From a virus: 36,345 bases of DNA. The stretch covers positions 1 to 36,345 of IMG/VR virus record IMGVR_UViG_3300007734_000988; one strand, given 5' to 3'. Made by a program: the position numbers and the translations under genes. Below, piece by piece: positions 2,802 to 35,382 of the stretch (positions within the stretch are counted from its first letter, which is position 1; each line of letters starts with the position of its first letter). Below the pieces are notes generated by a model. That model did no database searches. It was given only the letters and a program-made list of their open reading frames with translations, and was not told the DNA's origin.

Positions 2802-3565
2802 GGGGCGATAGAGAGTCCGCCGCCGCAGCCGCAGCTTCCGCAATACTCAACGCCGTTGATCGTAACGCACCATCCGGAGATTGTTCCGGTTAAGCCACCG
2901 GTGAAGCTCGCCGCCAAAAGCCAAAGCCTTGAAAATCCACCGACATTTATCGTCGCCGCTGGAAGAGTTTTTGGCGGCGTAGCAAAATTAAGCGGGCTCT
3001 CGTCTGAACCGTTCCACGCAAAACCTTGCGTAAAAAACCATCGAAAGACTCCATTAACCTTTTGAAAATTCGTCGAGGCTTGGTTTGGTGCCTGGCCAAC
3101 ATACGGCTGAACACTGACTGGCCTGGTGGAATACAAGTTGGTTCCGGTAACGGTGTAATCGGAAGGGGTAACGCAGACGTCCGCAACCGGGGTGCGGGAG
3201 TAGAACGATGGATGGTAAGTTGTTCCGCTTACGATTTCTCCGTTTTTAGAAACGCGCTCGCCGGACGGGTCGAATATCACGTTGACTCCGTCCAGCGCGC
3301 CCACCCCGCCTGCATTCGACAAGAGACAGGCGGCGTCAACATGAGACTGGAGGTCGCTCGTGAAAATCAGTTCAAGGCTGTTCGCCTGCGGAAACGTGAT
3401 GCCAAATACGCGGACGCGGGATGGGGCGACAAACCGCGCTGAGAGCGGGAGAGCAACATAAGAAAGGTATGGCGTTCCCTTCTTGTTGCCCGGCGAAGTT
3501 CCCGCGCCCAGAAAGTTAATGGCGGTGGAATCGAGGGGGCACGGCGGGAAAAGGTTCACGCTCAT
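2798..3565 (-). CDS. Tail-tip/baseplate-associated protein, unknown
   Basis: 255 residues, probably a beta-rich structural protein of the tail tip. No catalytic motif is visible. The C-terminus is Gly/Cys-rich (YCGSCGCGGG), which may bind metal or form disulfides. The start overlaps the stop of the large hub protein by four bases and the stop overlaps the next start, so it belongs to a tight tail cassette. Its DNA is clearly less GC-rich, with more A/T third positions, than the flanking phage genes. That suggests a recently exchanged module, as is usual for host-contact tail genes. Function is assigned by position only. Confidence 0.65.
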   Translation of the reverse strand: MSVNLFPPCPLDSTAINFLGAGTSPGNKKGTPYLSYVALPLSARFVAPSRVRVFGITFPQANSLELIFTSDLQSHVDAACLLSNAGGVGALDGVNVIFDPSGERVSKNGEIVSGTTYHPSFYSRTPVADVCVTPSDYTVTGTNLYSTRPVSVQPYVGQAPNQASTNFQKVNGVFRWFFTQGFAWNGSDESPLNFATPPKTLPAATINVGGFSRLWLLAASFTGGLTGTISGWCVTINGVEYCGSCGCGGGLSIAP

Positions 3566-5700: not shown

Positions 5701-5741
5701 GGCGGGTTGAGGGTTGAGAGTTGAAAGTTGAGAGTTGAGAG
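5701..5741. repeat. Heptamer array between tape measure and hub genes
   Basis: On the minus strand this junction reads as successive heptamers CTCTCAA, CTCTCAA, CTTTCAA, CTCTCAA and CCCTCAA, filling almost the whole gap between a stop codon and a TTG start. It is the clearest example of a heptamer family that recurs at many gene junctions here. Confidence 0.85.
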
Positions 5742-7748
5742 TCAGTCCTTGCGGAGGGTGCCGCCGGTAAGTTCCTCGTTACGGCGGATCTCGTCCATGA
5801 TGATCGCGATCAACCGCGCGTCCTTCTCGGCCATGGCGCGGGCCAGCCGCTCAAAGGCGGTGGCGACGGGATCAGGGCCGGAGACGGCGGGCGCGGTGGG
5901 CACGCCCGCGACGCCGCGCACGCCGGGCGCGCCGATGGGTTCGTTTCCGAAGGCGAAGTCGCCACCGGCCTTGATGACGGCCGCCTGGGTGGAGGCTTCA
6001 CGCGTTCGGTCTGTGACCGCCTTTACGGCCGCGCTGCGCTCGCGGCGGTTCACCTCGCCGCGCACGATGTCACCGTGGGCGGGCAGGTTGGCTTCGTTGG
6101 CTTTTTGGATCGCGGCGAGCCGGGCAGCTTCATCCGCCTGCGTGGCCTCGGCGGCGGCGAGCGGCTGGCCATCCACCAGGCCCTTGCCGGCGGCGGCGGC
6201 CTTGCTTTCGTTCCGCGTCTTCTGGTCGCGGAGAAGTTTTTGCTGGGTCTCGGCCAGCTCGGTGCGGAGCTCGTAGGCCCGGCTGCCGACGAGCGCCTGT
6301 CCGCGATCTGATGTAACGGATGCCTGAATTTTTTTGATGGCGGCCTTGTCCTCATCTACCATCCGCTGCATGGCGGCGGCGGGTTCGACCAGTTCCTTTT
6401 GTTCCTTTCGGGCCTGGGCGATTTTCGGGGCGCGCTCATTGACGCTTTCTGCGAGGTCTCCCTCCTGGCCGAGGGCGAAGTTGATGGCGTCCTGCGCAGC
6501 TTTTTGTTTGGCCTCCGACAGCGCATCCGCCTGGCGGTGCAGCTCGTCGGCGATCTCTTTTTGGAGCGTCGCCTTGCGCTCGAGGTAAGCAATTTCATCG
6601 TCGGGATTTTGCGCTTTCCAGATTTCCAGCTCGGCCAGGGCAAGGGCGTTTTCGGCGGTGGCAAGGGCGGCGACGTGGGCGGCGGCGTCATCGAGGTCGG
6701 TGACGAGCTTTTGCAGGTTGGTGCTGGAGGCGGCGGCGGCAGTGCCGATGCCGGTGAGCACGGCGTCCAGCTTCGCCTTTTGACCGGCGAGTTCCTCGCC
6801 ACTCTCCTTGGTTTTTGTCAACGCGTTGGCCATGCCGTCGAGTTTCTTGGTGGTGCCGCCGGTGACTTCCGCCCACCAGGCGAAAGTGCGGGCGAGGCCG
6901 CCGACGACGCCACCCGTCTCCTGGCCGTCGTTGATGAAGCGGCCGATGTTTTCGAGGACGTTGCCGAGCTGGAGTTTCATCTGCGCCCAGTGGCCGTTCA
7001 AACTTTGGGCGCGGGCCTCGAGCTGGCCGCCGCCGCGCTGGGCGAGGTCCTCCATGAGGGTGGCCATCTTCTCAGTCTGGGTGCCGGCCTCGCTCACCAC
7101 GATGCCGTAGCGGGAGAACATGGTGAAGTTTCCCTGCATGGCTTTGCTCACGGCGGCGGCGGCGCTCTCGACGTCACCGCCCATGATGCCGGCGAGATTC
7201 TTCACCGCCTCGGTGTATTGTTCGATCTGGTCCGGGTTCGCACCGAATTGCGTGAGGCGGGTGAGGACGTCGAGCCATTTTTCACCGGAGATGGCGGTCT
7301 TGGTTTCCAGTTCGTCAGCGAGGGCGGCGTATTTTTCGCGCGTGGCATCGGTCAGGAGCTGGTTTTGGGCGAGGGCGGCGTCGAGTTTGAAAACACTCTC
7401 CTGGTTGGCGGCGAATTCCTCGCGGGCCTTGGCCATGACGCCGATCAGCGCGGAAAAGCCGGCGACGGCCGCGCCGACGGGCGTGGCCAGGGCGGAGAGG
7501 ACAGATCCAACACCGGGAATGCTGGAGGCGGCGTCCTTGAGGCCGCCGAAAAAGCCGCCGCCGGCGGGGCCGGTGGAGTTTTTCATGCGCGCCTGGAGCG
7601 CGGCGAGTTTGGCCTCGGCCTCCTTGGAGGAATCGCCCAGGGCCTTGAGCTTGCCGATCTCGCGCTGGAGGGCGTCCTCGGCGGCTTTCGCGCCGGCCAG
7701 TTCGGCCTTGGTTTTGAAGACGAGTTCCTGGACGAGGGGGGCGCTCAT
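5742..7748 (-). CDS. Tail tape measure protein
   Basis: 668 residues. Features of a tape measure are an N-terminal helical/coiled segment (KAELAGAKAAEDALQREI), a Gly/Ala-rich hydrophobic stretch at about residues 75-110 (GVGSVLSALATPVGAAVAGF), the conserved tape-measure region with ETKTAISGEKWLDVL and AMQGNFTMFSRYGI, and a long Ala/Glu/Lys coiled-coil C-terminal half. It sets tail length and occupies the tube lumen. If helical throughout, 668 residues would give a tail of roughly 100 nm. The start at 7748 overlaps the stop of the upstream small membrane protein by four bases. Coding capacity upstream of 7748 in the same frame is a shadow of that small gene. Confidence 0.87.
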   Translation of the reverse strand: MSAPLVQELVFKTKAELAGAKAAEDALQREIGKLKALGDSSKEAEAKLAALQARMKNSTGPAGGGFFGGLKDAASSIPGVGSVLSALATPVGAAVAGFSALIGVMAKAREEFAANQESVFKLDAALAQNQLLTDATREKYAALADELETKTAISGEKWLDVLTRLTQFGANPDQIEQYTEAVKNLAGIMGGDVESAAAAVSKAMQGNFTMFSRYGIVVSEAGTQTEKMATLMEDLAQRGGGQLEARAQSLNGHWAQMKLQLGNVLENIGRFINDGQETGGVVGGLARTFAWWAEVTGGTTKKLDGMANALTKTKESGEELAGQKAKLDAVLTGIGTAAAASSTNLQKLVTDLDDAAAHVAALATAENALALAELEIWKAQNPDDEIAYLERKATLQKEIADELHRQADALSEAKQKAAQDAINFALGQEGDLAESVNERAPKIAQARKEQKELVEPAAAMQRMVDEDKAAIKKIQASVTSDRGQALVGSRAYELRTELAETQQKLLRDQKTRNESKAAAAGKGLVDGQPLAAAEATQADEAARLAAIQKANEANLPAHGDIVRGEVNRRERSAAVKAVTDRTREASTQAAVIKAGGDFAFGNEPIGAPGVRGVAGVPTAPAVSGPDPVATAFERLARAMAEKDARLIAIIMDEIRRNEELTGGTLRKD

Positions 7749-11938: not shown

Positions 11939-11975
11939 ACCCTCACCCCGGCCCTCTCCCCCAGGAGAGGGAGAA
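11939..11975. repeat. CCCTCACCCCGG hairpin repeat, copy 1 (intergenic)
   Basis: The element reads CCCTCACCCCGGCC and then a hairpin of CCCTCTCC and GGAGAGGG with loop CCCA. It fills most of the gap between the tail tube gene and the small downstream gene. Near-identical copies occur at 15814, 18131 and 27426. Confidence 0.88.
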
Positions 11976-15813: not shown

Positions 15814-15850
15814 CCCTCACCCCGGCCCTCTCCCCCAGGAGAGGGAGAGG
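15814..15850. repeat. CCCTCACCCCGG hairpin repeat, copy 2 (intergenic)
   Basis: Same element as at 11939, located between the capsid gene and the exported protein gene, next to a degenerate heptamer stretch (15776-15810). The stem-loop could slow polymerase or protect the 3' end of capsid mRNA; that is inference. Confidence 0.88.
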
Positions 15851-17303: not shown

Positions 17304-17347
17304 GGTCGGTGTTTGTTTGTGGAGTTTCGGGTTTCGGGTTTCGGGTT
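17304..17347. repeat. Heptamer array between protease and capsid genes
   Basis: Plus strand shows three successive GTTTCGG units (about 17324-17344), reading AACCCGA-type units on the coding strand. The array occupies the 44-base gap between the protease stop and the capsid start. Confidence 0.8.
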
Positions 17348-18037
17348 TTAGCGTCTCAGGATGCCTCGGAGTTCGCGGGCGAGGTTCAGCAGGTGCCCAT
17401 CATGGAGGCCCGCGCCGGATGGGCTGACCGGAGGCGCGGGTTCTGTCGCACTGCAAAAGTTTTTCAGGAGGTCGGCCACGGCGGCGAGATCACCCCTGGC
17501 GACGAAGCCCTGCTTGAGGGCGAGGCCGAGGGTGGCGCCGGGATTCGCGGGCACCACCACCATGCTGATCTCCAGCAGTTCGGCCTTGGTGTAGGTGCGG
17601 GCGGGGTCGTCCTTCGTTTTTCCGTTGGTCCATTCGAGCGGGATGAAGCCGACGCTCTGGGATTTGATGAAGCCGCCGGCGGCCATCTTGAAGGCGAGGT
17701 TGCCCAGGGGATTTTCCACGCAAAATTCCACGTCGTTGACGAGCTGGCCGTCCTTGTTCACCTCGATGTGCGCGGCGCGGCCAAGAATTTTCACGATGCT
17801 GGAGTAATCGTGACAGTCCGGGATGACGGGGTTGCGCTTGAAGTTCGTGAGGTTCCAACCTTTTTGATCGATGACCTCGTGGTAGCGGTCCACGGAGCCA
17901 TCGCTGCCGATGAAGCGCAGGGTGTTTTGTTTCGCGTCCACGTTCTTCACTTCGATGGTGAGACCGCCGCGCAGGCCGGCGTCGCCGGTGTGGAGGGCGA
18001 TGAGGCGGTTTCCAAATTCTTCGGAGAGTGGTTTCAT
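17348..18037 (-). CDS. HK97-family prohead protease (peptidase S78)
   Basis: 229 residues. Serine protease that processes the capsid scaffold during head maturation. The visible catalytic pattern is His76 in VIPDCHDYSS and Ser128 in IKSQSVGFIP, followed by the family's LLEISMVVVPANPGA strand. The position between portal and capsid is standard. The ATG overlaps the portal-MuF stop by four bases. After residue 190 the chain is Pro/Gly-rich and probably an unstructured tail. Confidence 0.9.
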   Translation of the reverse strand: MKPLSEEFGNRLIALHTGDAGLRGGLTIEVKNVDAKQNTLRFIGSDGSVDRYHEVIDQKGWNLTNFKRNPVIPDCHDYSSIVKILGRAAHIEVNKDGQLVNDVEFCVENPLGNLAFKMAAGGFIKSQSVGFIPLEWTNGKTKDDPARTYTKAELLEISMVVVPANPGATLGLALKQGFVARGDLAAVADLLKNFCSATEPAPPVSPSGAGLHDGHLLNLARELRGILRR

Positions 18038-20454
18038 GGGTTTTGCGTTTCGGGTTTCGGGTTCGGGAAGGACATGAGGCCGAGGCCGCAGATTTCAAAG
18101 GTGCGGAGGCTGTGATTGTTTTTGCGACCACCCTCACCCCGGCCCTCTCCCCCAGGAGAGGAAGAGGATTTTTCCTTGGGCGCGCGGGCGGCCAGCTGGA
18201 TGCACTGGCAGTTGATGATATTCGCGGCGGTGGCACCGAGGGAGTCGTCGCCGGGGAACATCAGCTCCTCGCCGCCGACGGTGAAGGGCTCGTCGAGGGG
18301 GATGGGGTTCTCCAGGGAGTAGGCGACTTCCGCGAGCTCGTGCGAGTAGCGCGCGTGGGGGCCGTGGGAACTGAGCCAGGCTTTGTATTCGATGCCGGCA
18401 TCGGCCATCGCGTCCTGGCGGGCGTCGTTGTAGGCGAGGTTGACCTCGGTGCGGGCGACGCGGGTGGCCTCGAATTTGGAGAGGTCGTTGAAGGCGGATT
18501 TAATCCGGTCCGCCAGCTCGCTCATGGTCTCGCCGGATTCGAGTCCGGACTGGAGCGCGGTGTTGATCTTGGAGCGGACGGTCTGGCCGCTGCCCATGAT
18601 CTCCTGGGTCCGGCTGTTGAAGTAGTCGATGGCTTTTTGGTTCGGCATTTTCCACGGGTCATCGAGGCCGATCTCTTTGCGGAGTTCGTTGCCGGCGGCT
18701 TGCAGGGTGTCGGTGATGGGGCGGCGAAGTTCGCCGGCGAGGTCGGTGCCGTAGGCGTGGGGGTCGAAGATGAGGTCGATCAGTGCGCGTTGTTGAGAGT
18801 TGGGGAGTTGAGGGTTGAGAGTTTTGAGATCGGAGGTCGAGAGTTTGGCAAGGACGCGGGCGCGGTGGGCGTTGAGGACTTTGGAGACTTTCGACTCGAA
18901 AGTTTTGACGGCGGACCGGCGGGCGGTGATGTGGGAGCGCCAGAGGCGGGCGAGGTCAGGGGCGCGGAGTTCCAAGTTGGGAGTTTCGGGTTTCGGGTTG
19001 GCCGCGGCGGACGCGAGCAGCTGTTGCATCCGAGTGATCGGGTCTACTTGCGCTTTCCCGCTTTCCCGCCTTCCGCTTTTGCCTTCCGCCGGGTCGCCGC
19101 TGTCTTCCGGCGGGAGGGGCGCGGCGTCGCCGCCGGCCTCCTGCAGGTTGAAGGGGAGGAATGATTTGTTCCCCCATGTCGGGTAATCGGGGAAACCGAG
19201 GTCGTAAACATGGTTGAGGTCGTTGAAGGTGACGCCGATGCCGAAGGCTTTCACGCCGGCGTCGAGCCGGGCGCGGCGGGCCTCCTGCATTTCCGGAAGG
19301 CTCTCGATGTCAAACCAACCGATCAGTCCGGGGCCGAAAGATTTGACGATGGGTTCGAGCGCGGCTTCGAGATTTTCGCAGAGCGGGGCGATGGTGTTGA
19401 CGACCCAGCCGATGGCCTCCTGGTTGATGGCGCTGCCGCCGCCGGAGAGGGCCGAGGCTTTCGCGTCGGATAAGCCCATGATGGAGTCCGGCACTTTGAA
19501 GATCGCGCCGATCTCCTGGCGGTTCATTTTTCGATTCTCGATGAAGGTGGTCTCCATGCCGGAGAGCTGGGGCTTGTCCATTTTCATTCCACCCCAGAGG
19601 AAGAGGGGGCGGTCCGGCGTGCCCGCCTTGCGTTTGCGTTCGCGCAGGGCGGCGTTGGTCTGCTGGATTTGTTCGGGGGTGAACTGTTGGTCGCTGGTGA
19701 CGACCATGCCGGTGTCGGCATTGTTCATCCAGTAACCCTTGTTGTACTGGCTGGCCGCGTAGTCCGCCCCGGCCGCGCCCATCGCGACGAGGAGCGGGGA
19801 CATGCCGCGCCAGTAGGTGTAGGGGTTGGGCCGGCGGCCGTGGATAAGTTCGCTCGGGAGCAGGAACTCCGAGGGGATGGGCGTGAGCAGCGGCGATCCG
19901 GTGTAGCGCCATCCGAGGAGATCGTAGCCAGCCACGTTATGCCAAAAAAGGGCGGTGTCCAGAGTGACGAGGCGGGTGATGCGGGCGGAGCTGGTGGCGA
20001 GATCGACGGGCTGATCGGCGTCGTCCAGGGGGAGGACGAAGAATTCGCCGCGCAAACAATTCCAGGTAACGACCATTTCCCAAAAAAGCTGGCGGCTCAT
20101 GGTGGGATGCGGCCGGTTGAAGAGGTCCACGATGGCCCCGGCCCCGATGATGTTCTCATCCATCGCCCGCCGGCACGCGGCACGGTGGCGTGGCTCAGAT
20201 GAGCGGCGCAGGGCGCGGACTTTTTTGGCGGGGTCATCGCCGAGGGAGGAAATGCGGAAAGGGATGGAGCTGATCTTCTCAGCCAGGCGGGAGACGGCGA
20301 TATAAACCCAGGCGCTTTGGGCGTAGGGGCTGGTGATCTGGGCACCGCCGGCGGAGGAGCCGTCGAGGTCGGCCCCGGTGAGGAAGTCGGCAACGGCGGA
20401 TTTGGCCTTTCCGAAACTGAACTGATGCCCGGCGATGGTGAGGGAGAGGTTCAT
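18034..20454 (-). CDS. Portal protein fused to MuF-type head morphogenesis domain
   Basis: 806 residues in one frame. Residues 1-435 are an HK97-type portal (NYxxW-like SAWVYIAVSRLAEKI, GMSPLLVAMGAAGADYAAS, IFKVPDSIMGL), the DNA gate of the head. Residues about 500-756 are a MuF/SPP1 gp7-type minor head protein (FEATRVARTEVNLAYNDAR, ANIINCQCIQLA). Mu and SPP1 carry these as two genes, so this is a fusion. The linker and tail are built from repeat DNA: GKSGRRESGKA (458-468), NPKPETPNLELR (486-497), LKTLNPQLPNSQQR (543-556), SSSPGGEGRGEGG (764-776) and NPKPETQNP (798-806). The ATG follows a repeat-filled gap. The fusion would tie each of the 12 portal subunits to one MuF subunit. Confidence 0.88.
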   Translation of the reverse strand: MNLSLTIAGHQFSFGKAKSAVADFLTGADLDGSSAGGAQITSPYAQSAWVYIAVSRLAEKISSIPFRISSLGDDPAKKVRALRRSSEPRHRAACRRAMDENIIGAGAIVDLFNRPHPTMSRQLFWEMVVTWNCLRGEFFVLPLDDADQPVDLATSSARITRLVTLDTALFWHNVAGYDLLGWRYTGSPLLTPIPSEFLLPSELIHGRRPNPYTYWRGMSPLLVAMGAAGADYAASQYNKGYWMNNADTGMVVTSDQQFTPEQIQQTNAALRERKRKAGTPDRPLFLWGGMKMDKPQLSGMETTFIENRKMNRQEIGAIFKVPDSIMGLSDAKASALSGGGSAINQEAIGWVVNTIAPLCENLEAALEPIVKSFGPGLIGWFDIESLPEMQEARRARLDAGVKAFGIGVTFNDLNHVYDLGFPDYPTWGNKSFLPFNLQEAGGDAAPLPPEDSGDPAEGKSGRRESGKAQVDPITRMQQLLASAAANPKPETPNLELRAPDLARLWRSHITARRSAVKTFESKVSKVLNAHRARVLAKLSTSDLKTLNPQLPNSQQRALIDLIFDPHAYGTDLAGELRRPITDTLQAAGNELRKEIGLDDPWKMPNQKAIDYFNSRTQEIMGSGQTVRSKINTALQSGLESGETMSELADRIKSAFNDLSKFEATRVARTEVNLAYNDARQDAMADAGIEYKAWLSSHGPHARYSHELAEVAYSLENPIPLDEPFTVGGEELMFPGDDSLGATAANIINCQCIQLAARAPKEKSSSSPGGEGRGEGGRKNNHSLRTFEICGLGLMSFPNPKPETQNP
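18131..18167. repeat. CCCTCACCCCGG hairpin repeat, copy 3 (in portal-MuF gene)
   Basis: The same hairpin element as at 11939 and 15814, here within the coding region. It is read as SSSPGGEGRGEGG directly after the MuF domain, showing insertion into or near the 3' end of an essential gene without breaking the frame. Confidence 0.88.
18785..19090. repeat. Three heptamer/octamer arrays in the portal-MuF linker
   Basis: CTCTCAA-type units at about 18787-18830, AACCCGA-type units at about 18970-19000, and CGCTTTCC units at about 19050-19076 are all in frame within the portal-MuF gene. Together they make much of the linker between the two domains. Confidence 0.78.
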
Positions 20455-21011
20455 TTCAGGAAGAGCGGAAAGCGGAAAGCGGAAACGAACTTCTCCCCAT
20501 CGGTGGGGGAGAGTGTCAGGGCGAGGGCGAACGTTATTTGCTTTTCAGCCTGTCGAGCGCGGCTTCGAGTTTGGGCAGCCAGCGTTTCGCGTTGACCTGG
20601 CCATCCCGGCAACGACGCCAACTGGCCCACCTCAGCCCGGACCACCGGGCGAGGTCCCGCTGGCTCCACGGTTCGGGTTGATGGGCGGCATGGGTCAGAA
20701 GGGTCTGGATGGCGGTCCGCAGCCGGTCCGCCAGCTCGTCGCTCCGCTGGCGCCGGGAGATGATCTTTTTCATGGCCGTCCGCCAGCGCCCGCCCAAACC
20801 GATTTTCCGGGCTTGGGCTTCGTCCAGTGGAAGGCTCACCAACGCGCCTGAAGGCTGGGCCATTGACTTTGGCCCAGTGGCGGGCGTCAGCACCGCGGAG
20901 GGCGGTTTTTGATCGGGATTCGCAGGCGTCATTTTTTGAGGACGCGGACAGGATGCCCGCGAGGAAAAAGATCGCAAGAAATATCAGTTGGAATGGGGAG
21001 TTTTTTTTCAT
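20451..21011 (-). CDS. Overlapping frame with membrane N-terminus (doubtful)
   Basis: This frame starts with an ATG that overlaps the terminase stop by four bases and encodes a good hydrophobic segment (MKKNSPFQLIFLAIFFLAGI). After about residue 26 it overlaps the helix-turn-helix gene at 20534-20932 in another frame and loses protein-like character, although it stays open until the portal start. The start could be a real short membrane protein, or the 5' part of an older gene cut off by a frameshift from the downstream frame near the A6 run at about 20934. Confidence 0.3.
   Translation of the reverse strand: MKKNSPFQLIFLAIFFLAGILSASSKNDACESRSKTALRGADARHWAKVNGPAFRRVGEPSTGRSPSPENRFGRALADGHEKDHLPAPAERRAGGPAADRHPDPSDPCRPSTRTVEPAGPRPVVRAEVGQLASLPGWPGQRETLAAQTRSRARQAEKQITFALALTLSPTDGEKFVSAFRFPLFLK
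20465..20531. repeat. Repeat-filled gap before the portal gene
   Basis: Three GCGGAAA units (about 20465-20484) are followed by a hairpin-forming CTCCCCATCGGTGGGGGAG (about 20492-20510) and GGGCGAGGGCG. The second part is a relative of the CCCTCACCCCGG element family. No Shine-Dalgarno sequence was seen. Confidence 0.7.
20534..20932 (-). CDS. Helix-turn-helix-like protein between terminase and portal
   Basis: 132 residues. The second half is well formed and basic: helices around RRQRSDELADRLRTAIQTLL, then WSQRDLARWSGLRWASWRRC, which looks like a winged or simple helix-turn-helix, then NAKRWLPKLEAALDRL. The first 40 residues are Pro/Ala-rich and probably disordered. No precise family was recognised. 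Its place between large terminase and portal suggests a packaging-linked DNA-binding or regulatory role, by inference. It overlaps in another frame with the longer membrane-start frame at 20451-21011, which is the weaker of the two. Confidence 0.6.
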   Translation of the reverse strand: MTPANPDQKPPSAVLTPATGPKSMAQPSGALVSLPLDEAQARKIGLGGRWRTAMKKIISRRQRSDELADRLRTAIQTLLTHAAHQPEPWSQRDLARWSGLRWASWRRCRDGQVNAKRWLPKLEAALDRLKSK

Positions 21012-26041: not shown

Positions 26042-26377
26042 CTATGTCCGGCTGGCTCGAAATTTTTCAAGCGCAATCGGCGGGAGACCAGCGCGACGGC
26101 GCGAAAAATTTTCGCGACAATAGCCCACGGCCTCGGCGGCGATCTCGATTTTTCGCAGGCCCTGGTAGCGCAGCAGGGCTTCCGGGATTTCACCCTCGGC
26201 CGTCCAGCGATAGACGGTGTCGCGCGTCACATTAAATTCGCGGGCGAACTGGACAGGGCGCAGCCAGGCGACGGGCAGGCCGGGGGTGACGACGAGGTTG
26301 TTGGTGCCGGGCTGCCGGGTGAGGACGGGGGCGCAGAAGAACTGGAGCTGGTTTTCGTTGGAGACGTTTTTTTTCAC
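26042..26377 (-). CDS. Helix-turn-helix regulator, MerR/excisionase-like
   Basis: 111 residues, GTG start. The central AREFNVTRDTVYRWTAEGEI then PEALLRYQGLRKIE is an excisionase/MerR-type winged helix with the typical DTVYRW-EGxIP pattern. It is the last gene of the early operon, just before the terminator and late control region, which places it well to activate late genes, as Mu C does. Mu C itself is not clearly related. GTG lies within the stop of a 17-codon leader (GTGA), so expression may be coupled. Confidence 0.75.
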   Translation of the reverse strand: MKKNVSNENQLQFFCAPVLTRQPGTNNLVVTPGLPVAWLRPVQFAREFNVTRDTVYRWTAEGEIPEALLRYQGLRKIEIAAEAVGYCRENFSRRRAGLPPIALEKFRASRT

Positions 26378-26427
26378 GAGACAAGTTCGAGGGGGCTGGC
26401 GACAGCGCAGGCGGCGATGAGTTTCAT
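26374..26427 (-). CDS. 17-residue leader peptide coupled to the regulator
   Basis: MKLIAACAVASPLELVS, ATG at 26427, with its stop overlapping the GTG start of the regulator. A sequence box in the upstream 35 bases closely resembles that before the gene starting at 28343, with the same 7-base spacing to the ATG. That supports this start being real, but the peptide may be only a translational-coupling device or the remnant of a longer gene. Confidence 0.42.
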   Translation of the reverse strand: MKLIAACAVASPLELVS

Positions 26428-26434
26428 AATCGGG

Positions 26435-26469
26435 ATATGCTAACGGGTGGTTGCAGAATCACTGTTAGG
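26435..26469 (-). promoter_or_regulatory. Shared upstream box, copy B
   Basis: 35 bases matching the sequence at 28351-28385 at 27 positions without gaps (core GAATCA-TGTT and GCTA-CGG on the plus strand). The box ends seven bases before an ATG in both places. It may be a regulator binding site, an RNA element, or a duplicated gene-end fragment. Confidence 0.55.
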
Positions 26470-26516
26470 AGTGCTCGCGTGTGGAGCGTTTGGAAGGATT
26501 GAAGTCTGAGACGCCC

Positions 26517-26780
26517 TCACCAGGCGATTTTCGAGGTATTGACGCTGCTCTGACTCGTTGGGCGAGCATCGCGGCCATACCATGTTTCGCGCTGTTGCGT
26601 CGCCTGATTCCAAGCTCGCAGGCAGTTGGTCAGGTATTGAGCCAGTATGAAGTCCGGCGTGTTGCTGGCGTTCTCCATGCTGCGCTTGTTGAGCAGGTCT
26701 CGGAGTTCGCTGATGAAGTCAGGGCCGTCCGCCGGACCAGTCAGTGCAGGAGGCGTAGAAGATTCAGTTTGTGTTTCCAT
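26517..26780 (-). CDS. Conserved small phage protein (SNTPDFILAQYL type)
   Basis: 87 residues. Contains LLNKRSMENASNTPDFILAQ, then YLTNCLRAWNQATQQRETWYG, a motif typical of a small protein widespread in tailed phages and prophages, found in early operons. Its function is unknown. The C-terminal 18 residues (GRDARPTSQSSVN...) look low-complexity. The gene starts five bases after the short reading frame at 26786-26884. Confidence 0.7.
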   Translation of the reverse strand: METQTESSTPPALTGPADGPDFISELRDLLNKRSMENASNTPDFILAQYLTNCLRAWNQATQQRETWYGRDARPTSQSSVNTSKIAW

Positions 26781-26785
26781 AGCGT

Positions 26786-26884
26786 TCAGATTTTCGGCGC
26801 GGGGTTGCTGCGCTCTGCGTTCGGGTAGTGGGTTTCATTTTTCAAATCGGTTGGTAGCATGAGTTGCAGGCTCTTCGATTTCAT
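26786..26884 (-). CDS. Short reading frame, 32 residues
   Basis: MKSKSLQLMLPTDLKNETHY then PNAERSNPAPKI. Its ATG overlaps the stop of the upstream gene by four bases (ATGA) and its stop is five bases from the next start, so it fits the operon spacing. LPTDLKNE resembles the N-terminal part of small phage proteins, but no function can be named. Confidence 0.45.
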   Translation of the reverse strand: MKSKSLQLMLPTDLKNETHYPNAERSNPAPKI

Positions 26885-27315
26885 CGTTTCCTTTCCGCTC
26901 CACCGTTGCCGTCGGCGGCAGTCGGTGAGCTTGGGTCGTTCTCCAACTCCAAAATTCCCGCGGACACGGCGACGGGCGCGCGCGTGTAAAAAACTTTGTC
27001 CATGGCCAGCACGCGCTGCTGAAGTTTCTGCGCCTGGTGGGCCAGGGTGTTCCGGGCGTGGTGAAATTGTTCGAGGGTGAGGTTGCGGGTAAGGAGGTAG
27101 CCGGCCTGGCCGGAGCTGATGCGGCCGCCGCTGCGCTCGGCCAGTCCGCGGACCCAGCGCTTGGTGTTCTCGGTGACGGGTTTTCCCACGGAGACCAGCA
27201 CGTCCTCGGCAAAGGTCCAGTCGCGGTGCGCGAGGTAGCCGATGAACCACTCGACGTCGCGATCGTCCGGCGCGGGGCACGCGTCGAAGAGGTCGGGCTG
27301 GGGGGCGGGGGGCAT
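26881..27315 (-). CDS. Unknown early protein, 144 residues
   Basis: Soluble, mainly helical. DDRDVEWFIGYLAHRDWTFA, KRWVRGLAERSGGRISSGQA, and FHHARNTLAHQAQKLQQRV suggest a compact DNA- or protein-binding domain. No family was recognised. It is coupled to the following short frame. The 28 bases before it hold AT-rich AAATTCAA-type heptamer units. Confidence 0.55.
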   Translation of the reverse strand: MPPAPQPDLFDACPAPDDRDVEWFIGYLAHRDWTFAEDVLVSVGKPVTENTKRWVRGLAERSGGRISSGQAGYLLTRNLTLEQFHHARNTLAHQAQKLQQRVLAMDKVFYTRAPVAVSAGILELENDPSSPTAADGNGGAERKR

Positions 27316-27343
27316 ATCAATTAAAAATTGGGAAATTCAAAAT

Positions 27344-28009
27344 TCAAAATGGATCGGAGGCGGAGGGGAGTTCGTCGGGCCAGTCGGGGGCGGGGACGGG
27401 GACGCTGTGTCCAGCGGCGCGCCCGCCCTCACCCCGGCCCTCTCCCCCAGGAGAGGGAGAAGATTTCGGGCGGCGCACGCGCGGGGCGTGGCCGGGCTTC
27501 CAGGCGTTGGGTCGGGCGTGGAGGTGCTGGTAGAATTTCACGAACTGCGCCGGCGGTAGATTGGCGAAGTCGCGGGTGTCGTGGAGGCGGAGAGATTCGC
27601 TGATGACGTAGCCGAGGAGGCAGTGGTTGTTTATTTTGGCCAGCATCTCGGCGCGGTGGGCGGCGGCCGGGTCCAGGATCTTCACGGCGGTGGCGAGGTC
27701 GCCGGGGTTGATGAGGGTCTGGAAAAAATCGAGGAGCGCGTTGGTGTCGCGCCAGGTGAAGTGCTTCGAGTCCTTGGGCAGGCCGAGGGCGACGGTGGTG
27801 GTGGCGTGTTTGAGGTCGCGCTCGACGGGGGCGCGGTGTTCCGCGGCGGCGAGCTGGGCGGCGAGTTCCTCGATGCGCTCGAGGTCGGTGTTGAAGGGGC
27901 GGTCCGCGCGCGGGAGGAGGCGGCGGGATCCGCGCGGTCCATCGTGAATCCAGTTCGCGCGGAAAACGGATTTCCAGGTGTCGTGGTAGCGGATGAGGGT
28001 GGCGGTCAT
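27344..28009 (-). CDS. Unknown early protein with repeat-derived tail
   Basis: 221 residues. Residues 1-175 look like a stable, largely helical protein (DLERIEELAAQLAAAEHRA, FTWRDTNALLDFFQTLINPG, HDTRDFANLPPAQFVKFYQH). No known family was identified, although size and position recall the Mu gp16/GemA region. Residues 183-195 (SSPSPGGEGRGEGG) come from a copy of the CCCTCACCCCGG hairpin repeat; what follows is Pro-rich. The gene starts eight bases after the DUF3820-like gene's stop. Confidence 0.58.
   Translation of the reverse strand: MTATLIRYHDTWKSVFRANWIHDGPRGSRRLLPRADRPFNTDLERIEELAAQLAAAEHRAPVERDLKHATTTVALGLPKDSKHFTWRDTNALLDFFQTLINPGDLATAVKILDPAAAHRAEMLAKINNHCLLGYVISESLRLHDTRDFANLPPAQFVKFYQHLHARPNAWKPGHAPRVRRPKSSPSPGGEGRGEGGRAAGHSVPVPAPDWPDELPSASDPF
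27426..27462. repeat. CCCTCACCCCGG hairpin repeat, copy 4 (in gene 27344-28009)
   Basis: Near-identical to the copies at 11939, 15814 and 18131, in the same orientation. Like copy 3 it is read as PGGEGRGEGG in frame and lies near the 3' end of the host gene. Confidence 0.88.
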
Positions 28010-28016
28010 TTAGGAT

Positions 28017-28343
28017 TTATGATTTTGGATTGGCCGCGCGGAACTCGGCGAGGGCGGCGGCGGCGATGCGGTCACTCTCGGCCCGGCTGACGCGCGGCGG
28101 TGCAGGCGCGGCGGCGCGGCGGGGCTTCGGCGGCGGGGGCGCGAGGGATTGGATGACGCGCTGGGCGTAGTCGCGCACGGCCGGCCACTGGTCGATCCAG
28201 GGCTGGGTGAGAAAGTAGCGGTAGGAGCTGAGGGGGACAAACTGCATGGTGGTGCCGGCGGCGTGGTGCTTGCCGAAGGGGAAAATGTCGCCGTCCTGGA
28301 GGGGCATTTCGCGGGCGGGGATTTTTTTCCAGGATGAGCTCAT
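28017..28343 (-). CDS. DUF3820-like small protein
   Basis: 108 residues. MPLQDGDIFPFGKHHAAGTT and VPLSSYRYFLTQPWIDQWPA match the FGKxxG-xxPxxYxxWL pattern of DUF3820, a module also found at the C-terminus of exodeoxyribonuclease X-type nucleases. Here it stands alone with a Pro/Ala-rich tail. It may help bind DNA in phage recombination. Its start overlaps the methyltransferase stop by four bases, and the 35-base box shared with 26435-26469 precedes it. Confidence 0.62.
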   Translation of the reverse strand: MSSSWKKIPAREMPLQDGDIFPFGKHHAAGTTMQFVPLSSYRYFLTQPWIDQWPAVRDYAQRVIQSLAPPPPKPRRAAAPAPPRVSRAESDRIAAAALAEFRAANPKS

Positions 28344-28852
28344 GGGGGTAATACGCTACCGGTGGGTTGGTGAATCATTGTTCGGGCTTCTAGCGCCATC
28401 TCCTGCTGACACCGCTTGGCGGCAGATTCGCAGTGGGCTTCGTTGAGTTCGATTCCGATGGCCTTCCGACCGAGTTGCTTCGCGGCCAGCAGCATCGTGC
28501 CGCTGCCCATGAACGGGTCGAGGATTGTCCCGCCGTCCACCGTCGCCACTTCGAGCAGCTTGGCGATTACCTCGACGGGTTTCTGGCAGGCGTGGTCGCG
28601 TTCGCTGGTGTGGACACGCTTCGAGCGGATGACGTTCTGGCCGGTCTTGGCCGCGTATTCCGTCGCGTAGTCGGCCCCGTTCACACGGCCCCAGCCGGCG
28701 GCTTTGGCATCGGCGCGGAGGGAGGCAGTCGTGGGCGGGAGGATGAAGTGCTCGCAGAGTTCGAAACCGTCCAGCACGTTGACATCGGGGAAGGTGACAT
28801 CGCCGGTGCCGTGGTCGTTTTCGCAGAACAGGAGCTGGCTTTTTCGGATCAT
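28340..28852 (-). CDS. C-terminal half of an N4/N6 DNA methyltransferase
   Basis: 170 residues. Contains the SAM-binding motif LDPFMGSGT (about 117-125) with KPVEVIAKLLE before it and GRKAIGIELNEAHCESAAKR after it, characteristic of the beta class of DNA amino-methyltransferases. The catalytic D/S-PP-Y/W motif, which in this class lies N-terminal to the SAM motif, is not present, and no upstream frame restores it. The ATG at 28852 seems natural. The protein may be a SAM- or DNA-binding remnant, a partner for another subunit, or a 5'-truncated gene. Confidence 0.78.
   Translation of the reverse strand: MIRKSQLLFCENDHGTGDVTFPDVNVLDGFELCEHFILPPTTASLRADAKAAGWGRVNGADYATEYAAKTGQNVIRSKRVHTSERDHACQKPVEVIAKLLEVATVDGGTILDPFMGSGTMLLAAKQLGRKAIGIELNEAHCESAAKRCQQEMALEARTMIHQPTGSVLPP
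28351..28385 (-). promoter_or_regulatory. Shared upstream box, copy A
   Basis: 35 bases, 27 identical to the box at 26435-26469. It overlaps the 3' end of the methyltransferase frame and stops seven bases before the ATG at 28343. See the matching copy for the argument. Confidence 0.55.
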
Positions 28853-29414: not shown

Positions 29415-29428
29415 GGGGAGTTGAGAGT

Positions 29429-29884
29429 TTAGGAGTTGAGAGTGGAGAGTTTTAATTGAGCTCGGAGGAGCTGGGTGAGGGCGTGGACTTCGGCGGCGCG
29501 ATGGTGGCTGGTGGCGGTCTGATGGGCGACGAGGTTGCGCAGGTTACTGATCGTGGCGGCGGTGCGGTGGAAGGCGGCGGCGAGGTCGTGGCGGTTGATG
29601 GTGAGGATCTCGCGGCAGAGGTGGACGGCCACGGCGCGCGCCCAGACGGTGTCCGCGGTGAGGCGGTTTTTGTGGAGGAGTTCGCCGAGGGTGATTTTGT
29701 AGTGCGCGCAGACGGCGTGCTGGATTTTTTCCACGAGCGGCCGGTGCGCGGCGACGGTGCGGCCGGGCTTGCGGCCGAGGGGGGCGGGGGCGGCCGGTTT
29801 GGAAACCGGCGCTCCGGGGCGGATGAGGCCCAGCTCGATGGCGCGGGCGGCGTAGTGGCGGCAGTCGGAGGGGGTCATGTTCAT
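29429..29884 (-). CDS. DnaA domain IV-like DNA-binding protein
   Basis: 151 residues. Residues about 53-125 (VCAHYKITLGELLHKNRLTA, DTVWARAVAVHLCREILTIN, AAAFHRTAATISNLRNLVAH) follow the C-terminal domain of DnaA, which binds DnaA boxes. No AAA+ module is present, so it would bind DNA without ATP-dependent assembly. It could recruit or block host initiation at phage DNA, or serve as a regulator. Residues 24-32 (GAPVSKPAA) come from a palindromic repeat at 29793-29810; the C-terminal STLNS comes from heptamer repeats. Confidence 0.76.
   Translation of the reverse strand: MNMTPSDCRHYAARAIELGLIRPGAPVSKPAAPAPLGRKPGRTVAAHRPLVEKIQHAVCAHYKITLGELLHKNRLTADTVWARAVAVHLCREILTINRHDLAAAFHRTAATISNLRNLVAHQTATSHHRAAEVHALTQLLRAQLKLSTLNS
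29793..29810. repeat. GCCGGTTTGGAAACCGGC palindrome, copy 2
   Basis: Exact second copy of the 18-base palindrome at 25318-25335, again in frame and again read as GAPVSKPA. Confidence 0.85.
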
Positions 29885-33567: not shown

Positions 33568-33851
33568 GTGGGGGTGGTTTCGGCGGCGGTGCAGAAGGGC
33601 TGGGGCAAAATGGGAATTGGACCGAGGACCTGCGCCGGCAGGATCAGCGCGAGCAGGTGGGTGGTCTGGCGGTGTTCCTCAAAGATTTCCGTGAGCTGCC
33701 GGACCGCGTCAAGGCTGAGATGGTCGGTGTCGAGCAGCCGGGTGACCACGTCGAGGATTTGGTCGCGGGACCGGCGCTGGCCGGCGAGGGTGATGGCGTG
33801 ATGGGCTCGGGTCATGGCCGCCTCCAGGCGTTGAGTTTCTTCGTGGGTCAT
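33564..33851 (-). CDS. Unknown early helical protein, 95 residues
   Basis: Helical and charged (TQRLEAAMTRAHHAITLAGQ, DAVRQLTEIFEEHRQTTHLL), no membrane span. Coupled to the next gene by a four-base overlap. Function unknown. Confidence 0.55.
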   Translation of the reverse strand: MTHEETQRLEAAMTRAHHAITLAGQRRSRDQILDVVTRLLDTDHLSLDAVRQLTEIFEEHRQTTHLLALILPAQVLGPIPILPQPFCTAAETTPT

Positions 33852-33854
33852 GGT

Positions 33855-33995
33855 TCAGGATTTACGGTTGAGGGTTTTGGTTTTGCGCGCGGCGGGCCGG
33901 GTGAGACGGGCGCCGGTGAGGACGCCGGCCCAGAAGAGCAGCGCGCCGGCGAAGAACGGAGCGAACTTCCAGAAAATGGCGAGGGGGGTGGACAT
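33855..33995 (-). CDS. Small membrane protein, 46 residues
   Basis: MSTPLAIFWKFAPFFAGALL then FWAGVLTGARLTRP and a basic tail. One transmembrane span at about residues 6-28. It starts four bases after the stop of the two-span membrane protein. Its 3' end contains heptamer-type sequence (KTKTLNRKS). Confidence 0.6.
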   Translation of the reverse strand: MSTPLAIFWKFAPFFAGALLFWAGVLTGARLTRPAARKTKTLNRKS

Positions 33996-33999
33996 GGAT

Positions 34000-34263
34000 T
34001 TACGCTTTCCCGCTTTCCCGCTTTCCGATCGCGCGGTTTTGGAAGGCGGCTTCGATCACGCCGTCCGTGCGCGGGGGCAGCGCGGGATGGCGGCGGGAGT
34101 GCCGCGCGGCGGCGGCGCACCAGCCGCAGAACCATGCGCCGGCGAGCAGCGGGAGGATGAGCGCGTAGAACATCAACGCCTCGCCAGTCGTCTCGGCGAG
34201 CTGGCTGACGAAGACCGCGAGCCAGGCGAAGAGGAACAGGAGGAAGAGGGTGAGGATTTTCAT
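34000..34263 (-). CDS. Two-span membrane protein, 87 residues
   Basis: Two hydrophobic spans, LTLFLLFLFAWLAVFVS (about 4-20) and ALMFYALILPLLAGAWFCGW (about 29-48), with a basic cytoplasmic tail. The end (IGKRESGKA) comes from three CGCTTTCC octamer units at 34003-34026. No family was recognised. Adjacent small membrane genes suggest a pair, maybe for superinfection exclusion. Confidence 0.62.
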   Translation of the reverse strand: MKILTLFLLFLFAWLAVFVSQLAETTGEALMFYALILPLLAGAWFCGWCAAAARHSRRHPALPPRTDGVIEAAFQNRAIGKRESGKA

Positions 34264-34270
34264 GGCGGGT

Positions 34271-35113
34271 TTAGGCGGCGGCGGCTTCACGGCGGGCGGC
34301 ACGGGCGGCTTTGAGTTCTTCACCCAGCACCGCGTGCAGGGTCTCGATCTGGCCAAACTGGTCGTTGTCAGCCCTGGCGAGCCGGTTGGAGAGGGAGAGG
34401 CGAAGCTCCTTGGACTCCAGCCCGTGCTTGAAAACCTTGCCGAAAAATCCGTCGAAGAGTTCAAACTGGTTGACCTCGGGCCGGGTGCTGCCGGTCTTCT
34501 TGAAGCCGTCATGGCCGGCGATGATGGCGCCGAGGCCGGGCGTGTCCTTGTCGGCCGCCCTCAGCAGGACTGGCTCGATGGCGGCCTTGTATTTGGGATC
34601 CTTGGCAAAGAGGGCGTAAACCTCGCGGGCCTGGTGAAACATCGTGCGGGACATGCCGAGGCGGTGGGCGAATTCTTCGACGGTCAGATCACCGGTGTTC
34701 ACTGAGTGAACACCGGTGGGAAACCGGCCTTTTTGGCGGTTTTTCTCCTGGTGAATGCGGGTCTTGGCGATCATTTCCTTGACGATCGGCCAGAGCAAAT
34801 ACGCCTGCTGGCCCTTGGTGTAGTGTAGGTGGAGGCACATCTCGGAGATGACGAGCGCGGCCTCGTCCGGCGGGACCTCGAAAACCGGCAGCGCGAGGAT
34901 GGAGCATTGCCGCGCGGCGAACATCATCCGGGCCGCATCCGGCGTGCAGACCTGGTGACCGACGACGGGCAGCGGGGTGAGCGGCGCGCCGGTCGCCAGC
35001 AGGTGATCGCAAAGGGTGTCAAAGTGCGCGCCGGTCTTGTAGGACTCGGGCGCGCCGGGGAGTTCGAGCAGGAGGGGGTGGAGTTTGAGTTGTCCGGGGT
35101 CGATGGTGTTCAT
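34271..35113 (-). CDS. ParB-like protein (ParB/Srx nuclease-like fold plus helix-turn-helix)
   Basis: 280 residues. The N-terminal part (LKLHPLLLELPGAPESY, LATGAPLTPLPVV, ARMMFAARQCSILALPVFEV) follows the ParB/Sulfiredoxin-like fold. Residues about 148-170 (LTVEEFAHRLGMSRTMFHQA) are the helix-turn-helix. It is the second gene of the early operon. Phage homologues can act as regulators, plasmid-like partitioning proteins or CTP-dependent clamps; no ParA partner is present. A 29-bp perfect palindrome lies within the gene between the two domains. ATG at 35113 is preferred; upstream in-frame sequence overlaps the RHH gene. Confidence 0.76.
   Translation of the reverse strand: MNTIDPGQLKLHPLLLELPGAPESYKTGAHFDTLCDHLLATGAPLTPLPVVGHQVCTPDAARMMFAARQCSILALPVFEVPPDEAALVISEMCLHLHYTKGQQAYLLWPIVKEMIAKTRIHQEKNRQKGRFPTGVHSVNTGDLTVEEFAHRLGMSRTMFHQAREVYALFAKDPKYKAAIEPVLLRAADKDTPGLGAIIAGHDGFKKTGSTRPEVNQFELFDGFFGKVFKHGLESKELRLSLSNRLARADNDQFGQIETLHAVLGEELKAARAARREAAAA
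34690..34718. repeat. 29-bp perfect palindrome within the ParB-like gene
   Basis: CACCGGTGTTCACT (34690-34703), G, AGTGAACACCGGTG (34705-34718). It is read as PTGVHSVNTG in the linker between the domains. It may be a protein-binding site such as a parS-like centre, or an inserted palindromic repeat. Confidence 0.85.
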
Positions 35114-35139
35114 TTTTTGGGGGTTGAGTTTGGAGGGTG

Positions 35140-35334
35140 TCACGCGGCTTGTTTTTCCGTCATTTGGAAGGGGAAGCCTTCGCGGGCAAGTTTTTCGCGG
35201 AGGGCCGCGCGAATGTATTTCGCCCGGTCGGTGTCGTTGCGCTCGACGGCCGCGTCCACCACGGGGATGAAGTCGGTCGGCATGAGCAAGGTAATGAGCC
35301 TCGTTTCTGGTTTCGTTGCAGCGTCGTTTTTCAT
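35140..35334 (-). CDS. Ribbon-helix-helix regulator heading the early operon
   Basis: 64 residues from ATG 35334 (GTG at 35343 would add three). TRLITLLMPTDFIPVVDAAV, then DTDRAKYIRAALREKLAREG is a CopG/Arc-type fold: a beta strand for DNA contact and two helices. A perfect palindrome lies 10 bases upstream, and a second RHH gene runs the other way. It is the first gene of the leftward operon, so it may repress its own promoter. Confidence 0.78.
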   Translation of the reverse strand: MKNDAATKPETRLITLLMPTDFIPVVDAAVERNDTDRAKYIRAALREKLAREGFPFQMTEKQAA

Positions 35335-35344
35335 GTCGCGCACA

Positions 35345-35361
35345 GATATACTCAGTATATC
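35345..35361. promoter_or_regulatory. 17-bp palindromic operator between divergent RHH genes
   Basis: GATATACT-C-AGTATATC is a perfect inverted repeat. The GATATA half (35345-35350) coincides with a possible minus-strand -10 (TATATC), 18 bases from a -35-like TTGTCA (plus 35369-35374). RHH dimers usually bind such short AT-rich palindromes. Confidence 0.75.
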
Positions 35362-35382
35362 GGGAATATGACAAGAATTATT

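Follow-up and report, generated by a model that had tools for sequence, protein, structure and literature searches.

Two diverged copies of a candidate gene-boundary sequence before start codons in the early region of a Mu-like phage

Introduction

The Start-Associated Sequences (SAS) of Cluster K mycobacteriophages were described as a 13-bp motif with a Shine-Dalgarno core, present at 93 sites in all (Pope et al. 2011, PMC3203893). The promoter early stem-loops (PeSLs) of T4-type phages are composed of an early promoter and a stem-loop (Arbiol 2010 and Comeau 2014, as cited in PMC4503421), and gene movement by recombination between copies belongs to the definition of such mobile regulatory cassettes. 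In Beggiatoaceae, TAACTGA heptamer repeats are found upstream of start codons, and a translational role was suggested for them (MacGregor 2015, PMC4679880).

Here, a pair of similar sequences before two start codons of a phage, referred to as the box, was analyzed. The window, i.e., the whole stretch of DNA under analysis, is the complete virus record of 36,345 bases. No paper on the box or on the phage was found in the literature search, in which no query was aimed at the exact sequence.

Results

Phage genome

The window is the record of a Mu-like phage. A Mu Gam-like protein, AAA ATPase, portal joined to a Mu F-like domain, terminase, and capsid are encoded in it. The 752-aa ORF adjoining the ATPase showed weak HTH matches only in Pfam. 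It aligned to L070, a Verrucomicrobia MAG, at 29% and to ORFs in two of the seven genomes of the same order at 31-33%, and it was called MuA-like because of its position and these alignments.

In the cellular genome collection, the Gam relative was found in one Verrucomicrobia MAG (L070, 59% identity; one of 66 candidate stretches). Gam matches were present in 14 of 236 genomes of the class, all at 36% or less except that of L070. Among viral contigs, the Gam relatives were L071 (61%), L073 (55%), and L054/L072 (54%, one contig), and searching viral contigs by transposase or ATPase gave no relatives. Insertion was not directly observed, because no close relative with an empty site, i.e., without the insert, turned up among the relatives searched.

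Several other repeats and unusual ORFs were noticed in the window. A 31-bp sequence was placed in four exact copies of the same orientation (11940-11970, 15814-15844, 18131-18161, and 27426-27456), and the copies at 18131 and 27426 are inside ORFs, near their 3' ends. It contains an internal inverted repeat (CCCTCTCC...GGAGAGG) and looks like a REP-type palindromic element. Tandem 7-bp arrays with differing units (5706-5742, 17324-17348, 20459-20485, and 29418-29451) were located 4-21 nt upstream of the minus-strand ORF starts 5700, 17303, 20454, and 29414. Enrichment of such arrays before starts was not supported in relatives (9/637 upstream versus 6/637 control). A near-perfect palindrome (34690-34718), symmetric at 28 of 29 positions, lies within ORF 34271-35374 and may be an operator. 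The 95-aa ORF at 33848-34135 showed strongly deviant codon usage (LL -1.58, GC3 0.56), and it is either no gene or imported.

The box pair and its surroundings

The initial annotation had reported a 35-bp box at an equal distance before two start codons, and this was confirmed. On the minus strand, 28385-28351 and 26469-26435 were identical at 27 of 35 positions without a gap, and seven bases separate each box from an ATG of the same strand (28343 and 26427). The four bases from each ATG onward (ATGA) are identical behind both boxes. The features of the two sites are as follows.

28340..28852, minus strand: ORF of 170 aa, a truncated methyltransferase on another N-terminus, by partial PF01555 match and codon usage
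28351..28385, minus strand: box copy 1, within the 3'-terminal part of the chimeric methyltransferase ORF, with ATG 28343 following after 7 nt
28017..28343, minus strand: p108, downstream of box 1, with a homolog in L061 (36% over residues 15-64)
26517..26780, minus strand: p87, accessory phage gene directly upstream of box 2 (phrog_31227, function not assigned)
26435..26469, minus strand: box copy 2, non-coding, behind the 87-aa gene, with ATG 26427 following after 7 nt
26374..26427, minus strand: ORF of 17 codons that begins with the ATG after box 2; the stop overlaps the GTG start of the HTH gene
26042..26377, minus strand: small DNA-binding protein of HTH_17/excisionase-like type, with Pfam and NCBIfam matches all below cut-off

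The similarity extended upstream to 33 of 45 positions (box 1 to 28395, box 2 to 26479), and its ends were sharp. The 7-nt spacers between boxes and ATGs agreed at only one position. For spacers differing at six of seven positions P = 0.003, a value biased by the trimming of the box to finish on a match. The differences within the box were even over codon positions (3/3/2), without codon-position bias, and the box is not palindromic. No third copy was found in the window, where the next best match was 17/27 versus 16-18 in ten shuffles, and no Rfam family was detected in the window at gathering scores.

In the 170-aa ORF, residues 79-145 matched only positions 154-220 of the 221 of PF01555 (N6_N4_Mtase), i.e., the last third. 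Because the match is limited in this way, the ORF was regarded as a truncated methyltransferase fused to another N-terminus. The fusion reading follows from domain truncation and codon usage rather than from an intact homolog. Residues 1-62 had no recognizable family (best phrog_14981, E = 0.31), and searches of 384 genomes and of the phage collection detected no homologs of these 62 residues. The codon-usage score of the methyltransferase part was in the lowest 7.7% of native windows, and the first 62 codons were typical (58th percentile). Box 1 lies within the last codons of this ORF, whose end overlaps the p108 start.

Relatives of p87 (87 aa) were found in 26 viral contigs and 13 phage records. 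Its codon-usage score was in the lowest 3.8% of native windows. The GC content was 57% in p87 and 52% in the stretches on both sides of it; all other tabulated genes had 59-70%. The sequence is suggestive of a foreign origin of both p87 and the methyltransferase part, codon usage being not strong as a sign. Behind box 2, the true start of the HTH gene is probably GTG 26377, in agreement with the start of the L061 homolog. Distant relatives of the HTH protein were present in 4 of 384 genomes.

Evaluation of chance similarity

Over the whole window, the box pair was only mildly unusual. The GC-rich window held 49 pairs with at least 27/35 identity, many of low complexity. The box pair ranked 24th of 590 segments with a composition-adjusted score of at least 22 bits, i.e., 23 scored higher, and a direct pair at least as good occurred in 2 of 20 codon-triplet shuffles.

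Aligned to start codons, the box pair was exceptional. It was the best of 435 pairs of annotated-like starts (33.4 bits; runner-up 13.9), and among 55,945 minus-strand ATG pairs its runner-up scored 29.0 bits; these start-anchored statistics concern a finding chosen after the fact, and ATG 26427 opens just a 17-codon ORF. Of the random-position sets, 3 of 60 held a pair scoring at least 33, and true repeats exist elsewhere in the window. Rough Karlin-Altschul expectations (K=1) were 0.12 for the whole window, 3e-4 for all minus-strand ATGs, and 2e-6 for the chosen starts. A further chance figure of 0.02 is circular, because its pattern was derived from the two copies themselves.

Search for the box in other genomes

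The search for the box suggested in the initial annotation recovered it from none of the relatives examined, nor did it turn up in the viral contigs and verrucomicrobial genomes that were screened, beyond control levels. L061 is a relative with homologs of both downstream genes, i.e., p108-like (36%) and HTH (46% identity), and no box-like sequence precedes either homolog. The 87-aa gene is also absent from L061. In verrucomicrobial genomes, the box with up to three mismatches matched 3 of 387, versus 5 genomes for the reversed pattern. A common verrucomicrobial repeat was thus rejected, there being no excess over the reversed pattern in the 387 genomes. Viral contigs gave no exact match to the 21-position or 18-position box pattern, a type of matching that misses diverged copies.

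Once three pattern-drawn loci were set aside, the 90 fetched loci (881,228 bases) showed no excess of box matches over the reversed control. The top scores out of 27, i.e., 22, 21, and one of two 19s, belonged to L076, L074, and L075, which had entered the locus set through the box pattern itself. Without them, one score of 19/27 (L041) was left, versus a reversed-control maximum of 18.

Repeats around p87 relatives in other phages

Repeats near start codons were found around p87 relatives of other phages. In L009, an exact 30-nt repeat including ATGAACGA, with ATG and the next codons in it, was placed before two genes, and in L011, an exact 24-nt repeat with a Shine-Dalgarno sequence was placed likewise. 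The p87 relative was the last gene between the two copies in both. In L025/L026, a 27/29 repeat had one copy on either side of the p87 relative, approximately 30 nt ahead of the next start. In their whole records, the 24-mer of L011 and the repeat of L025 were each present only twice at up to three mismatches. The window, L009, L011, and L025/L026 have in common a start-near repeat bracketing a segment, in which a p87-family gene is the last before the downstream copy.

The bracketing test covered the 26 viral-contig loci; for seven loci around phage-record relatives (L097-L103), the annotation was read. Repeats with a score of at least 18 bracketed the p87 relative in five of these 26 loci, of which L025 and L026 have one repeat in common and L003 has only a short-period, tandem-like repeat. 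The other 21 loci had no bracketing repeat. Among control intervals (n=156; best four per locus listed), none scored above 18.5. Repeats not bracketing the p87 relative were found in 7 of 26 loci, so bracketing may not be specific to the p87 relative. From these sequences, repeated gene-start boundaries recur in phage accessory regions, here of three other lineages, and the link to p87 itself is a lead. It is a long shot that phrog_31227 marks a widespread mobile accessory module bordered by start-associated direct repeats private to each phage. If so, phages would swap small genes via start-codon boundary repeats, with the p87 family as tag or agent.

Additional elements were observed in two of these loci. 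In L011, from an uncultured phage, a boundary element CAGCCGAGCGGAATTATA, mostly followed by a Shine-Dalgarno sequence, stands before several small genes (1827, 2789, 3288, and 3962). At these positions, the 18-nt core of the 24-nt repeat was exact at 1827, 3288, and 3962 and had three mismatches at 2789; a partner, CTCGGCTG, was found upstream at 3207. The boundary element resembles mobile regulatory cassettes. In L025, the 29-nt repeat (2922-2950 and 3293-3321) contains an inverted repeat and flanks the 87-aa relative, and a tRNA-like gene, judged by eye, lies just upstream.

Discussion

We give about an even chance to the reading that both boxes derive from a single gene-boundary (start-associated) sequence and have since diverged, within the mosaic early region of this Mu-like phage. 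Each copy ends an imported-looking segment, i.e., the truncated methyltransferase or the 87-aa gene, and adjoins the start of the following ORF. The boundary sequence would most likely have been brought in with, or duplicated by, the recombination that inserted these segments. The box may provide the following gene with a start region, with a short leader and no Shine-Dalgarno sequence, and may supply short homology for module exchange. This reading accounts for where the boxes lie and how they are oriented, for the sharp ends of the similarity, for the foreign look of the upstream ORFs, and for the missing box in L061. It is also supported by the outlying score of the box pair among start pairs (33.4 versus 13.9 bits) and by the similar repeat arrangement in L009, L011, and L025/L026. 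On the other side, no donor carrying the box was found in the genomes, contigs, and loci searched, the left ends of the two inserts share nothing evident by eye, the codon-usage evidence at 3.8% and 7.7% is only suggestive, and 21 of 26 p87-relative loci have no bracketing repeat.

The initial annotation had offered two explanations, i.e., a control element or a duplication including a gene start. The similarity is outlying at starts, the differences are even (3/3/2), and ATGA is shared; a common origin of both gene-start boundaries is therefore favored, and the control part of the proposal found no support in fold, sigma-70 site, Shine-Dalgarno sequence, or third copy. Shared control could mean a cis-acting operator or promoter used twice, e.g., by the small HTH protein whose gene follows box 2, or a promoter of the host yielding near-leaderless mRNAs, and the two variants together are a tentative, rather unlikely alternative. 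The fixed 7-nt distance to the ATG despite a diverged spacer is accounted for by a control element equally well or better than by the boundary reading. Both boxes lie within an early-type gene block, the HTH gene is directly behind box 2, and neither box nor spacer has an AGGAG-like core that would serve as a Shine-Dalgarno sequence for its start. Beyond the fixed distance and diverged spacer, however, nothing else measured favors shared control. No sigma-70-like site was found at the boxes, although a non-standard host promoter may still apply, and no stable fold of the boxes exceeded shuffles on either strand, whether as DNA or as RNA (z from -0.98 to 0.84). The lack of a further copy in the window, the missing box before the homologous genes in L061, and the non-palindromic box also speak against it. 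The spacers differ at six of seven positions, a pattern more in keeping with constraint on the box and start than with a duplicated block that diverged neutrally.

That the resemblance is accidental, a selection from the many pairs that could be compared, is unlikely. The as-good pair in 2 of 20 shuffles, the 49 pairs of at least 27/35, and the 23 higher-scoring pairs would allow it, but with all minus-strand ATGs counted, the start-codon alignment is still expected at only about 3e-4, and the second-best start pair trails by about 20 bits. Coding homology, with box 2 as a decayed methyltransferase 3' end, is very improbable. Box 2 is open in the methyltransferase frame and finishes at the same TGA of ATGA, but no methyltransferase domain lies upstream of it. 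As box 2 is in no recognizable methyltransferase gene and codon-position bias is lacking, methyltransferase coding needs do not explain the similarity. The most improbable of these explanations is that the boxes are integron-like attC recombination sites, each closing a gene cassette. An attC site is longer than about 30 nt and consists of paired R/L boxes giving an imperfect hairpin. Both boxes are at the 3' end of a segment, and box 2 contains an imperfect inverted repeat, CTAAC...GTTAG. However, this repeat is broken in box 1, a length of about 30 nt is too short, and the boxes showed no excess folding, so the hairpin of attC is not seen in them.

If repeats like those of the boundary reading recur around one accessory family in unrelated phages, they would offer a testable route for gene swapping that leaves the neighbors unbroken. 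For now, the window is one more diverged two-copy example.

Comparison with known systems

The SAS, as characterized in PMC3203893, are similar to the box in being short, non-palindromic, mostly in one orientation, and a few nucleotides before an ATG. They are also placed in the non-structural gene half and linked to genes of different families (PMC3203893). Their typical distance of 3-7 nt from the ATG in one orientation agrees with the 7 nt and minus strand of both boxes. In contrast to the many copies of the SAS, the window has two diverged copies of 35-45 bp, and their Shine-Dalgarno core is absent from the boxes and spacers.

The PeSLs share with the box that repeated gene-boundary elements occur in gene-shuffling regions (PMC4503421). 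However, the boxes have neither the early promoter, as no sigma-70-type site was found at them, nor the stem-loop, their z values being between -0.98 and 0.84. The TAACTGA repeats, also within several nucleotides upstream of start codons, are tandem heptamers (PMC4679880), whereas the box is not tandem. Because the box pair lacks defining features of SAS and PeSLs, it was assigned to neither and at most works like them. It would belong to a loose group of repeated gene-start boundary sequences.
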